Positions 16,697 through 21,031 of a stretch of 64,000 bases of DNA are shown piece by piece. Position numbers and translations under genes: made by a program. Within the stretch, counting starts at the first letter, position 1. Every line of letters starts with the position of its first letter. Under the pieces are notes generated by a model, which did no database searches, was not told where the DNA came from, and saw only the letters and a program-made list of their open reading frames with translations. Location of the stretch: assembly GCA_958295905.1 (NCBI GenBank), contig OY282382.1, positions 1,760,001 through 1,824,000 of the forward strand, read 5' to 3'. Source of the stretch: an uncultured Vicinamibacterales bacterium (GTDB lineage: Bacteria; Acidobacteriota; Vicinamibacteria; Vicinamibacterales; UBA8438).

Positions 16697-16801
16697 ACTA
16701 TCGACTTTGCCGTGCCGGCCGATAACCCGGTCGGTGCATCGACCCTGCGGACGGGAAGGACCCGCCCCCCCGCGGGACAGGTTGTCGGCGAGGAACAACG
16801 C

Positions 16802-17176
16802 GTGACTGCACACCACTTCGTGGGCGAGGGCGGCTACTCGGAGGGCCTGCTGGCCGCGGGCGGGGCCGAAGGCCTGCTGGCGAAGGTCTCGGCCCTGGTG
16901 GACGCGGTCGGCCTGCAGGTGATGGCCGAGCAGGCGGTGCCGTTCCCCGGCGGAGGCGCCACCCTGGTTTGGGTGCTCGCCGAGTCGCACTTGGTGCTGC
17001 ACCTGTGGCCCGAGGAGGACCACGTCACCATCGACCTGCACATCTGCGACTATCGCACCGAGAACGAGGCGCGGGCGCGGCGGCTGCGCGACGCCCTCGA
17101 CCGCTTCTGCTTCGCGCCGGGGTCCTCGGGCTGGACCGAGCTCATGGTCGGCGGACGGCAGTTGGTCAGTGCCTAG
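16802..17176 (+). CDS. speD: S-adenosylmethionine decarboxylase-like proenzyme (SpeD family)
   Basis: A 124-residue protein matching the short bacterial SpeD class. The self-cleavage site is conserved as AESHLVLHLWPEE, with Glu61-Ser62-His63; Ser62 would become the pyruvoyl cofactor. A second cysteine-containing motif, DLHICD (Cys82), matches the family's FTCG region. The N-terminus HHFVGEGGYSEGLL corresponds to the family's HxxVDLYGC segment, which is why I place the start at the GTG 16802 (GAGG upstream) and not at the ATG 16712. The expected reaction gives decarboxylated SAM, the aminopropyl donor. No spermidine synthase is nearby; instead a methyltransferase overlaps its 3' end. Confidence 0.82.
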   Translation: MTAHHFVGEGGYSEGLLAAGGAEGLLAKVSALVDAVGLQVMAEQAVPFPGGGATLVWVLAESHLVLHLWPEEDHVTIDLHICDYRTENEARARRLRDALDRFCFAPGSSGWTELMVGGRQLVSA

Positions 17177-18077
17177 CACGGCGCAGACTCCGGGAGAGCC
17201 GGTCGGGCAGGAAGCCGAGCCGCGGGACGGCGGTCTCCCCGCCGGATCCGCCGCCGACGACGAGCAGTCGCGCTACAAGGGCTTCTGGGCCGACGTCGGC
17301 GAGAACTTTCCCGATCTGGGCCGCGCCCGGTCGACCGCGCAGTACCGCACCGACGAGCGCTGGCTGCTGCGCACCTTTCTGCCCGCTCTCGCCGGGCAGC
17401 GCATCTTCAAGACCGATCTCTGGGACGAGGCCAAGAACACCCGCATCCTGCGCTGGGCCGCTGGCGAAGGGGCGCACGCGTTCGGCGTCGACATCTCGCC
17501 GGCCATCGTGGCCGCCGCCCGCCGGGGTTTCACCGACGCCGGCCTCGATCTGCACGGCGTGCAGGGCGATGTGCGCACCCTGCCGTTCCGCGACGGCAGC
17601 TTCGACGCCATCTACTCGATGGGCACCGTCGAGCACTTCGACGACACCGACGGCGCGCTGCGCGAGATCTTCCGGGTGACGCGCCCCGGCGGCACCGCGG
17701 TCATCGGCGTGCCCAACCGCCGCGACCCCTTCCTGCGCCCCCTGCTCGTCGCCCTGCTCTACCGCATCGGGCTCTACGGCTACGGCTTCGAGAAGTCCTA
17801 CTCCCGGCCCGTGTTCCGGCGCATGCTCGAACGGGCCGGCTTCGAGGTGACCGCGGAGACCGGCATCCTGTTCATTCCGGGGTGGCTGCGCATGGCCGAC
17901 CTCGCCTGCCACACCTCGACGCTGCCGCCCCTGCGCTGGTGCGCCCGGCTCACCGGCGCCCTCTGCGCCCCCTTCGACTGGGCGTCGCGGCGCTGGCCCC
18001 GCCTGCGCCGCCACGGTTACCTCCTCGCCTCGGTGGCGGTGCGGCCGAAGACCGGCGGCGGGACCGCCGGCCGGTGA
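17169..18077 (+). CDS. Class I SAM-dependent methyltransferase
   Basis: A 302-residue Methyltransf_11-type protein. A variant motif I region (FKTDLWDEAKNTRILRWAAG...AFGVDISPAIV) is followed by VQGDVRTLPFRDGSFDAIYS, MGTVEHFDD and VTRPGGTAVIGVPN. The usual GxGxG loop is replaced by a DLWDEAKNT segment. The GTG start at 17169 overlaps the SpeD-like stop by 8 bp, implying coupled translation. The substrate is unknown. Its C-terminal tail runs into a 33-bp GC-rich direct repeat (18054-18086). Confidence 0.82.
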   Translation: MPSTAQTPGEPVGQEAEPRDGGLPAGSAADDEQSRYKGFWADVGENFPDLGRARSTAQYRTDERWLLRTFLPALAGQRIFKTDLWDEAKNTRILRWAAGEGAHAFGVDISPAIVAAARRGFTDAGLDLHGVQGDVRTLPFRDGSFDAIYSMGTVEHFDDTDGALREIFRVTRPGGTAVIGVPNRRDPFLRPLLVALLYRIGLYGYGFEKSYSRPVFRRMLERAGFEVTAETGILFIPGWLRMADLACHTSTLPPLRWCARLTGALCAPFDWASRRWPRLRRHGYLLASVAVRPKTGGGTAGR

Positions 18078-19115: not shown

Positions 19116-19303
19116 GCGCAAAACACAAGACGCGGTCGCTGCGCTTGCTGCATCACGGTGGTCTCACCGTGCCGATCGTCGGCTGGCGCAAACACAAGAA
19201 CACGAGACGCTGCCGTTGCGCTTGCTGCCTGATCTGCGGCAAGGCGATGAACGAGGCGCAGATGGCGGCGCAAAAACACAAGACGCTGTCGCTGCGCTTG
19301 CTG
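19116..19303. repeat. Three ~36-bp repeats upstream of the exosortase gene
   Basis: Copies of GCGCAAAACACAAGACGC followed by GTCGCTGCGCTTGCTGC lie at 19116-19151, 19187-19228 and 19267-19303; the middle copy carries a short insertion. A perfect 7-bp hairpin (CACGGTG-GTCT-CACCGTG, 19155-19172) sits between the first two. The whole 656 bp from the SRPBCC start to the exosortase start has no credible gene. Confidence 0.7.
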
Positions 19304-19375
19304 CGGCTCGCGCAGTCGCCACCTGCCGATACTCGACAGACCCGCTGCGTCCGTGGGTGGGCGTCGGGCCTCTCC

Positions 19376-19475
19376 AGCACGCGGCCGCGACCGGGCGCCG
19401 CGTCTCCAGGAACCGGACCCCGGACGTCGTCGACGACCAGCACGCGGCCGCGACCGGGTATCACGTCTCCAGGGC
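19376..19475. repeat. Pair of ~37-bp direct repeats
   Basis: CAGCACGCGGCCGCGACCGG followed by a short variable stretch and CGTCTCCAGG occurs at about 19376-19412 and 19439-19475. Both lie in the upstream region of the exosortase gene, next to the three-copy repeat. Confidence 0.65.
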
Positions 19476-19564: not shown

Positions 19565-21031
19565 ATGGATACGACTCGGCCCGATGCCGCCGGCCGCGAG
19601 TCTGCGGCCGAATCCGGCGGCTCGTTGCGGTTCGCGCTGACCATCGGCGCGTGGTTCGTCGGGCTGTTCGGCCTGATGCGGCTCGGGTGGGTCGAGCACA
19701 CCCTGCTGACGCCGTTCGCGCAGCTCCAGCAGCGGGTGGCGGAGCAGCTCACCGGGGTGACGTCGGGCCTGCTCTACGCCGACGCGAGCTGCAGCGGGGG
19801 CGACCCCATGGCCCTGTGCATGGGCGCCATCTTCGCATACCCCGCCGCGTGGGGGTCGCGGCTGCGCGGCGCCGCGGTGGGGCTGATCGCGATCACCGCG
19901 CTGAACGTCGTGCGGCTGGGCTCGCTGTCGATGGTGGCCGAGAACCGGGGTCTGCTCGACGTGCTGCATTTGTACGTGTGGCCCGCCATCCTGATTCTCG
20001 TCGCCGCCGCCTACGTCTACGGCTGGATGGACCGGCAGGGGAGCCGCGGCGGCGGCCGTCCCCCCGCCGCCGGCGCGCCCGCTGGCGAGCTGTTCGGCAC
20101 GGTGCCCGTGCTCGGCGGGGCGACCCGCCGGTTCCTGGTGCTGACCGCGGCGCTCGTCGCCGCCTACTTCGCGGCCGCGCCCTTCTTCTACCAGAGCAGC
20201 CTCGTGCGGGTGCTCGCGGGCTGGGTCGCGCTGAGCGGCGGCACCATACTGACCGCCGCGGGCACCGAGACCACCGTCATGGGCGCCGGTCTCCACACCG
20301 CGCACGGCGGCTTCCTCGTCACCCAGGAGTGCGTGTTCACGCCGCTCATCCCGGTGTATCTTGCCGGCGTGCTGGCCGCGCCCCTCGCCCCGTGGCGCCG
20401 CGCCCTGGCCCTCGCCGCCGCCCCCGTCATCTTCTTCGCCATCGGCGTCGCCCGCGTCCTCGTGCTCGCGGTCCCCGCCGCCGTCGTCGGCAACTACGAG
20501 GTGGCCATTCACGGCTTCTCGCAGACCCTCGTCGCCGTCCTCCTCGTCGCCGCCGCCGCCGTCTGGACCACCGGCGACGGCCGGCGGGGCGCCGCCCGCG
20601 CCGTCATGGCGGTCGGCGCGGGGCTCGCCGCGGGCTTCGCCGCCGCCCCCGTGCTGGGCGCCCTGCTCGGCGGCGGCGCAGCCGCGCTGCAGGCCCTCGC
20701 CGGCCACGGCCACGCGTTCGTCGACGAGCAGGGCGCCGCCGCGGTGCTGCCCGCGTTCCAGGTCGGCCTGTTCGCCGCCCTCTGGACCGTCGTCGCCGGC
20801 CGCGCCGCGTGGCGCCGGGCCCTGCTCGGCCTCGGGGTCCTCTCCGCCAGCCAGGCCGCCCTCGCCCTGGCCGTCGGCGAGCTGGCCTTCCACATCGGCT
20901 TCGACCCCCACGTCGCGCTGATCCGCGCGTGGACCGTCGTCGTCCCCCTCGCCCTCGTCTGGGCTCTCGCCCGCCCCGAAGGCGCCCCCGTCTGGCGCGC
21001 CCCCGCCGCGCCGGTGTCCGTGTCGGGGTGA
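19565..21031 (+). CDS. Tandem-domain exosortase/archaeosortase family protein
   Basis: A 488-residue polytopic membrane protein. The first half has the exosortase triad: Cys76 in DASCSGGDPMALC, Arg117 in ALNVVRLGSL and His135 in LDVLHLYVWP. A linker rich in Gly/Pro (about 155-185) leads to a second half with the same layout: Cys256 in VTQECVFTPLIPVYLAGV, Arg297 in IGVARVLVLA and His316 in VAIHGFSQTLVAV. The Cys-to-Arg spacing is 41 residues in both halves. Exosortases are transpeptidase-like enzymes that process C-terminal sorting signals of exported proteins. The ATG at 19565 follows AGGAAAGGGAACCG. About 170 further residues form extra membrane helices. No obvious substrate gene lies in the window. 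Confidence 0.8.
   Translation: MDTTRPDAAGRESAAESGGSLRFALTIGAWFVGLFGLMRLGWVEHTLLTPFAQLQQRVAEQLTGVTSGLLYADASCSGGDPMALCMGAIFAYPAAWGSRLRGAAVGLIAITALNVVRLGSLSMVAENRGLLDVLHLYVWPAILILVAAAYVYGWMDRQGSRGGGRPPAAGAPAGELFGTVPVLGGATRRFLVLTAALVAAYFAAAPFFYQSSLVRVLAGWVALSGGTILTAAGTETTVMGAGLHTAHGGFLVTQECVFTPLIPVYLAGVLAAPLAPWRRALALAAAPVIFFAIGVARVLVLAVPAAVVGNYEVAIHGFSQTLVAVLLVAAAAVWTTGDGRRGAARAVMAVGAGLAAGFAAAPVLGALLGGGAAALQALAGHGHAFVDEQGAAAVLPAFQVGLFAALWTVVAGRAAWRRALLGLGVLSASQAALALAVGELAFHIGFDPHVALIRAWTVVVPLALVWALARPEGAPVWRAPAAPVSVSG

Follow-up and report, generated by a model that had tools for sequence, protein, structure and literature searches.

Sequence analysis of a tandem exosortase-like protein with two conserved Cys-Arg-His triads from Vicinamibacterales

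Exosortases are normally single copies that anchor proteins on the bacterial surface. One open reading frame of an uncultured Vicinamibacterales bacterium carries two complete Cys-Arg-His triads, which raises the question of whether both halves of its product are exosortases and, if so, what a single polypeptide could do with two of them. Archaeosortases and exosortases perform Cys-based C-terminal sorting (PMC11980579), and no description of a tandem form was found in the open-access papers searched. The analyzed stretch of 64,000 nucleotides is referred to below as the window; the features discussed are listed in Table 1.

Table 1. Position of the tandem gene, its modules and triad codons, and two neighboring genes in the window
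Feature	Position	Strand	Basis
SpeD-like gene (AdoMet decarboxylase family)	16712..17176	+	PF02675, 51.5 bits (cut-off 25)
Class I SAM-dependent methyltransferase gene	17169..18077	+	PF08241, 2e-21
Tandem exosortase CDS	19565..21031	+	Single ORF, ATG start, 488 aa
Exosortase module D1, residues 22-158; motifs CSG...N-x-x-R...H	19628..20038	+	Profile scores, alignment
Codon of Cys76, putative D1 nucleophile	19790..19792	+	Invariant, 18/18
Codon of Arg117, D1	19913..19915	+	Invariant, 18/18
Codon of His135, D1	19967..19969	+	Invariant, 18/18
Module D2, residues 188-340, diverged second exosortase with VTQECxxTPLIP and pre-Cys loop	20126..20584	+	Profile comparisons
Codon of Cys256, putative D2 nucleophile	20330..20332	+	Invariant, 18/18
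Codon of Arg297, D2	20453..20455	+	Invariant, 18/18
Codon of His316, D2	20510..20512	+	Invariant, 18/18
Module D3, residues 345-473, membrane module without a triad	20597..20983	+	Conservation, predicted helices

Two exosortase modules and a third membrane module

The translation confirmed the predicted positions of both triads, C76/R117/H135 and C256/R297/H316, and when the protein was shuffled 20,000 times, two triads with the spacing C-41-R-59/60-H never arose. The distance from Cys to Arg is 41 in both halves and that from Cys to His is 59 in the first half and 60 in the second. The equal distance of 41, emphasized in the original prediction, is real but an ordinary trait of the family, since the single-domain XrtH of locus L081 (C73-R114-H133) has spacings of 41 and 60. 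A repeat-rich stretch lies in frame upstream of the ATG of the tandem gene. Just 5' of the gene a 32-nt repeat occurs three times at a spacing of 76-77 bases (window 19120-19304), and a 37-nt repeat pair is found upstream at window 19374-19473.

The whole protein matches the NCBIfam XrtH profile TIGR04177 at 7.7e-17 and 61.7 bits, below the cut-off of 86 bits. XrtH is also the best-scoring family for the N-terminal half with D1 (58 bits when taken alone), where the membership cut-off is not reached either. The exosortase/archaeosortase signature TIGR04178, with a cut-off of 23 bits, is passed by both the whole protein (36.6 bits) and the N-terminal half (40.2 bits). The second half is far more diverged: D2 alone has 7.7 bits against the same signature, under the cut-off, and the matches of the second half to XrtH (4.6e-4) and to Pfam Exosortase_EpsH (1e-3) are also under their cut-offs. 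Alignment of D1 with D2 by hhalign (E 1.1e-5) is gap-free and places Cys76 on Cys256 and Arg117 on Arg297, and among 201 offsets of the ungapped D1-D2 register the one that puts Cys on Cys ranks first (z 7.6). The D2 HMM matches single-domain exosortases of other Acidobacteriota from end to end, the best at 3.7e-11. Given the family profiles, the alignment of D1 with D2 and the matches of the D2 HMM, both D1 and D2 belong to the exosortase/archaeosortase superfamily.

The modules differ in the surroundings of their triads. The motifs of D1 are canonical (CSG, N-x-x-R and H-x-Y-x-W), and the beta-hairpin loop before the Cys is missing; D2 keeps this loop, with predicted beta strands within residues 236-251, as single-domain exosortases do, and has the altered motifs ECxxTPLIP and GxxR without the CNG/CSG and N-x-x-R contexts.

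An AlphaFold2 model based on an alignment of 18 sequences is of moderate confidence (pLDDT 78.8, pTM 0.63). After C76 it predicts helices at 79-91, 96-123 and 128-161 in D1, and after C256 helices at 261-271, 276-308 and 311-336 in D2; the control, a single-domain XrtH, has predicted helices at 75-88, 93-121 and 126-167 after C73, at low confidence. Counting the predicted helices from the Cys onward, helix two holds the Arg and helix three the His in D1 and D2 alike. The models thus agree with a polytopic membrane protein having predicted exosortase core helices after each Cys, and the loop charges mostly follow the positive-inside rule for a topology with both triads on the periplasmic side. 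Sequence and fold searches of the PDB gave no meaningful match to the protein or its model. The claim of a tandem exosortase stands as to sequence, invariant triads and predicted helix pattern; a second half without the exosortase fold, which would have counted against it, did not appear in these models of moderate to low confidence.

The two-part anatomy of the original prediction is correct for the triad modules but overlooks a third, triad-less module at about residues 339-473. This module, D3, has the conserved pattern DxQGA..LPAFQxGL...R454...P461, within which D387, Q389, P396, F398, Q399, R454 and P461 are invariant in the 18-sequence alignment. Its predicted three-helix core (391-410, 416-444, 450-468) resembles the exosortase core. 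A reading of D3 as one more exosortase, in which Q389-Q430-H449 would repeat the 41/60 spacing, was rejected: its register, with z 2.2 and rank 3 of 151, does not reach significance, and a different register results when the WRR motif or the predicted helices serve as the anchor. Another candidate identity is a fused form of the XrtH-associated membrane protein XrtH_assoc. The D3 HMM matches local loci, and hhalign of D3 with XrtH_assoc gives P 2e-4 and a probability of 45%; the reciprocal search was negative, and the sole exosortase-adjacent match in the whole-genome search had an E of 0.25. As the reciprocal test is negative and the whole-genome test nearly so, we did not adopt this identity. 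D3 occupies the place that a fused XrtH_assoc-like partner would take, and homology between the two is hinted at, being weakly favored by the forward sequence comparisons.

Distribution and divergence of the tandem family

Full-length matches with 39-72% identity were found in relatives. A collection with one genome per species contained 17 further full-length records, along with one frameshifted record and one fragment; all 17 are labelled as Acidobacteria/Vicinamibacteria MAGs, except one titled only "bacterium". Among 396 Acidobacteriota genomes, seven encode the full-length tandem protein; six of these belong to Vicinamibacterales (including the genome of the window) and the seventh to another part of the class. 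The remaining matching genomes of the phylum have D1-only matches, which are single-domain exosortases, except the Vicinamibacterales genome G148 with one short C-terminal match only. An apparent tandem outside the phylum, in a Hydrogenedentota locus (L083), proved to consist of two genes, one for a single exosortase and after it one resembling XrtH_assoc, and the viral contigs searched contained no relative of the tandem protein. The tandem family was found only in Acidobacteriota, namely in Vicinamibacterales and, in a single genome, in another part of the class.

The alignment comprises the window protein and 17 homologs that are 36-69% identical to it, and all six triad residues are identical in every sequence. 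Cys256 lies within VTQECxxTPLIP, a segment that ranks among the best conserved in the protein. D1 forms one clade (support 100/100) and so does D2 (100/99), the stem branch of the latter being very long (2.25 changes per column). A single clade of D1 and D2 has p-AU 0.478, which is compatible both with and without an internal duplication.

That the gene arose from a fused frame or an assembly artefact joining two adjacent exosortase genes is scarcely credible: the parts lie in different frames in G016, but there is one intact ORF in the three-contig genome of the window and in 17 other aligned records, and each module forms its own clade. Two records depart from the common arrangement. In G026 (L016, 1501-2757) an in-frame deletion has brought VTQECVSTPLIPV right next to HAFYQ, so that the D2 Arg segment is gone, the Cys and His stay, and D1 and D3 are kept; this may be an assembly error. 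In G016 (L078 / L014+L018) D1 is read in another frame than D2-D3, through a frameshift or a natural split. The deletion and the frameshift might stem from faulty assembly or might indicate that D2 is dispensable.

The divergence of the second module bears on its function. D2 might be catalytically dead and serve a structural or regulatory role, its triad being kept for folding or substrate binding, with D1 alone cleaving. The far greater divergence of D2 with its stem of 2.25, the replacement of CNG/CSG by ECxxTPLIP and the retention of D1 and D3 in G026 without the D2 Arg segment are in line with such a role; on the other hand, Cys256, Arg297 and His316 are invariant in 18 of 18 sequences, and the location of Cys256 in the highly conserved VTQECxxTPLIP would be unusual for a dead site. 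We regard a dead D2 as a serious possibility, though not the one we would choose. D1 is likely the main cleaving site, and the chances that D2 is itself catalytic appear evenly balanced.

Candidate substrates and conserved neighbors

The genome of the window has three C-terminal tails that exceed the cut-off of IPTL-CTERM (TIGR04174). A clade-specific tail profile (A2), built partly from this genome's own tails, finds five, four with E < 1e-21 (1e-22 to 1e-25) and one at 7e-4; one A2 match (1440395) is neither an IPTL match nor part of the profile. The consensus of the tails is WDxAVPALPxIAQLLLAAFLAxGGYRRYRRR (local form VPALPxIAQLLL...RRYRRR). Two belong to large repeat-rich proteins of ~1000 aa whose N-termini are signal-like, one to a Cache-domain protein and two to apparent gene fragments. 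At two loci of this genome (L114, C1:1380000-1394000; L115, C1:1427000-1446000) large VPALP-CTERM repeat proteins have near-identical N-terminal leaders, and tail fragments without a full gene are also present, a picture that would suit recombination or decay within the family.

No exosortase other than the tandem enzyme was found in the genome of the window. In three other genomes a tail gene lies near the tandem gene: directly upstream in G002, directly downstream (an IPTL gene) in G028, and ~1.2 kb away on the same contig and the opposite strand in G258. An enzyme adjoining a single target is a known mark of dedicated systems, as in the case of rhombosortase (PMC3237569). In the whole phylum, IPTL-CTERM occurs in 40 of 53 genomes with exosortase-profile matches vs 12 of 343 others (Fisher 9e-33), an association that mostly reflects single-domain enzymes, only three of the seven tandem genomes carrying IPTL tails (E <= 0.003), and whose P value, like the other Fisher P value given below, overstates independent evidence because the genomes share ancestry. 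No tail matches were found in the tandem genomes G012, G020 and G032. The tandem enzyme probably handles the surface proteins with IPTL-type tails in the genome of the window.

Only two tail types, IPTL-CTERM and PEP-CTERM, were searched. Sorting-signal proteins were found in the same genome as the tandem gene, as had been anticipated, in the form of IPTL-type tails, the search for PEP-CTERM tails there being empty. This result bears on the suggestion that each site handles a sorting signal of its own. Such a division of labor would suit two triads differing in local motifs and loop lengths, but the tails found in this genome are of the IPTL type alone, and the PEP-CTERM-rich Vicinamibacterales genomes G027, G030 and G039 have other exosortases and not the tandem; we consider two signals very unlikely, and the suggestion is left without support.

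At 17 of 25 tandem loci (duplicate records merged) a SpeD-like gene precedes the tandem gene in the same orientation, often with a gap of 50-150 bases, compared with 1842 in the window; it occurs at 0 of 27 single-domain loci, for which the flank is mostly only 1.5 kb. PF02675 is present in 12 of 13 tandem genomes vs 6 of 28 others (Fisher 2.5e-5; related genomes, not independent), and the window's gene is the only SpeD match found in its genome. The score with TIGR03330 (46 bits) is under cut-off, and the alignment shows that the protein retains ESH and C motifs, which we take to be those of autoprocessing decarboxylases. Roughly half of the tandem loci have a close homolog of the methyltransferase on one side of the tandem gene or the other. 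A role of these two enzymes in the sorting reaction is a guess; no open-access paper containing both "exosortase" and "adenosylmethionine decarboxylase" was found. In G007, G012 and G023 (L024, 2327-4870, minus strand; L026; L022) a polytopic membrane protein of 815-848 aa adjoins the tandem enzyme; it looks glycosyltransferase-like by eye, and the G007 copy has no Pfam match.

These neighbors bring up the suggested combination of a protease and a ligase. One site would cleave and form the acyl-enzyme and the other would activate it or transfer it to an amine, so that both triads would be catalytic in successive steps, and the SpeD-like enzyme and the methyltransferase would provide or complete the acceptor. 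The operon-like placement of the SpeD-like gene at 17 of 25 loci, its enrichment in tandem genomes and the nearby methyltransferase are what such a pathway might leave, but its acceptor would be purely hypothetical, the genomes counted are related, and SpeD may just serve polyamine synthesis, a spermine/spermidine-synthase-family gene being present elsewhere in the genome. We think a two-step reaction of this kind improbable. If true, it would mean a sorting system that adds an amine-type group to the new C-terminus.

A possible mode of action and comparison with known systems

The two triad modules and the triad-less membrane module are conserved as a unit, and IPTL-type tails co-occur with them. 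The evidence leans towards the tandem protein being a naturally fused, pseudo-heterodimeric sorting enzyme of the XrtH/IPTL-CTERM type. Each module would span the membrane, with both triads facing the periplasm. Substrates exported by Sec would be retained via their C-terminal helix, and the VPALP/IPTL motif would bind at the interface of the modules. A Cys would then attack the peptide bond near the motif, releasing the basic tail, and the acyl-enzyme would be handed to an acceptor located on the membrane's outer side. Joined in one chain, the modules may form an obligate pseudo-heterodimer, D1 having canonical motifs without the loop and D2 the loop and a triad with a rewritten motif; D2 could perform a second turnover or transfer, or shape the site through its retained triad. 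The proposed role as an internal dimer would fit this scheme.

We know of no solved structure for the exosortase reaction and of no identified acceptor. The conservation of both triads in a natural fusion suggests that two exosortase units are able to function as neighbors, and the fusion offers separable active sites for mutagenesis along with a small set of likely substrates. The conserved SpeD-like neighbor may point to the missing exosortase chemistry.

Among known systems, Archaeosortase A and the classic PEP-CTERM exosortase EpsH/XrtA share the superfamily signature TIGR04178 with the tandem protein; each is a single enzyme domain without an internal repeat and has other targets. XrtH (TIGR04177) with IPTL-CTERM (TIGR04174) is closer: D1 scores best with XrtH, the triad is the same with spacings of 41 and 59-60, and tails in the genome of the window pass the IPTL-CTERM cut-off. 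The tandem protein differs in having two exosortase modules and a third module in one chain, in scoring below the XrtH cut-off and in a D1 without the pre-Cys loop.

In other bacteria a membrane protein of ~200 aa follows the single-domain XrtH, the Pseudomonas and Haliea copies being XrtH_assoc (NF041730) over the cut-off, and similar membrane proteins follow single-domain exosortases in Acidobacteriota. NF041730 has no match in the genome of the window and none above cut-off in its relatives. In Pseudomonas sp. MRCP1333 (L081, 7300-9038) a repeat protein with the tail APTLSQGALLML...RARRRA, XrtH and XrtH_assoc stand in a row, an arrangement that is a compact conventional XrtH system. Where other bacteria have the XrtH-associated protein directly after a single-domain XrtH, the tandem protein has D3 at the corresponding position. 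Since the XrtH cut-off is not reached and there is no separate XrtH_assoc gene, we do not call the tandem protein XrtH; judging from sequence, it is fair to say that it may work like XrtH, not that it is XrtH.
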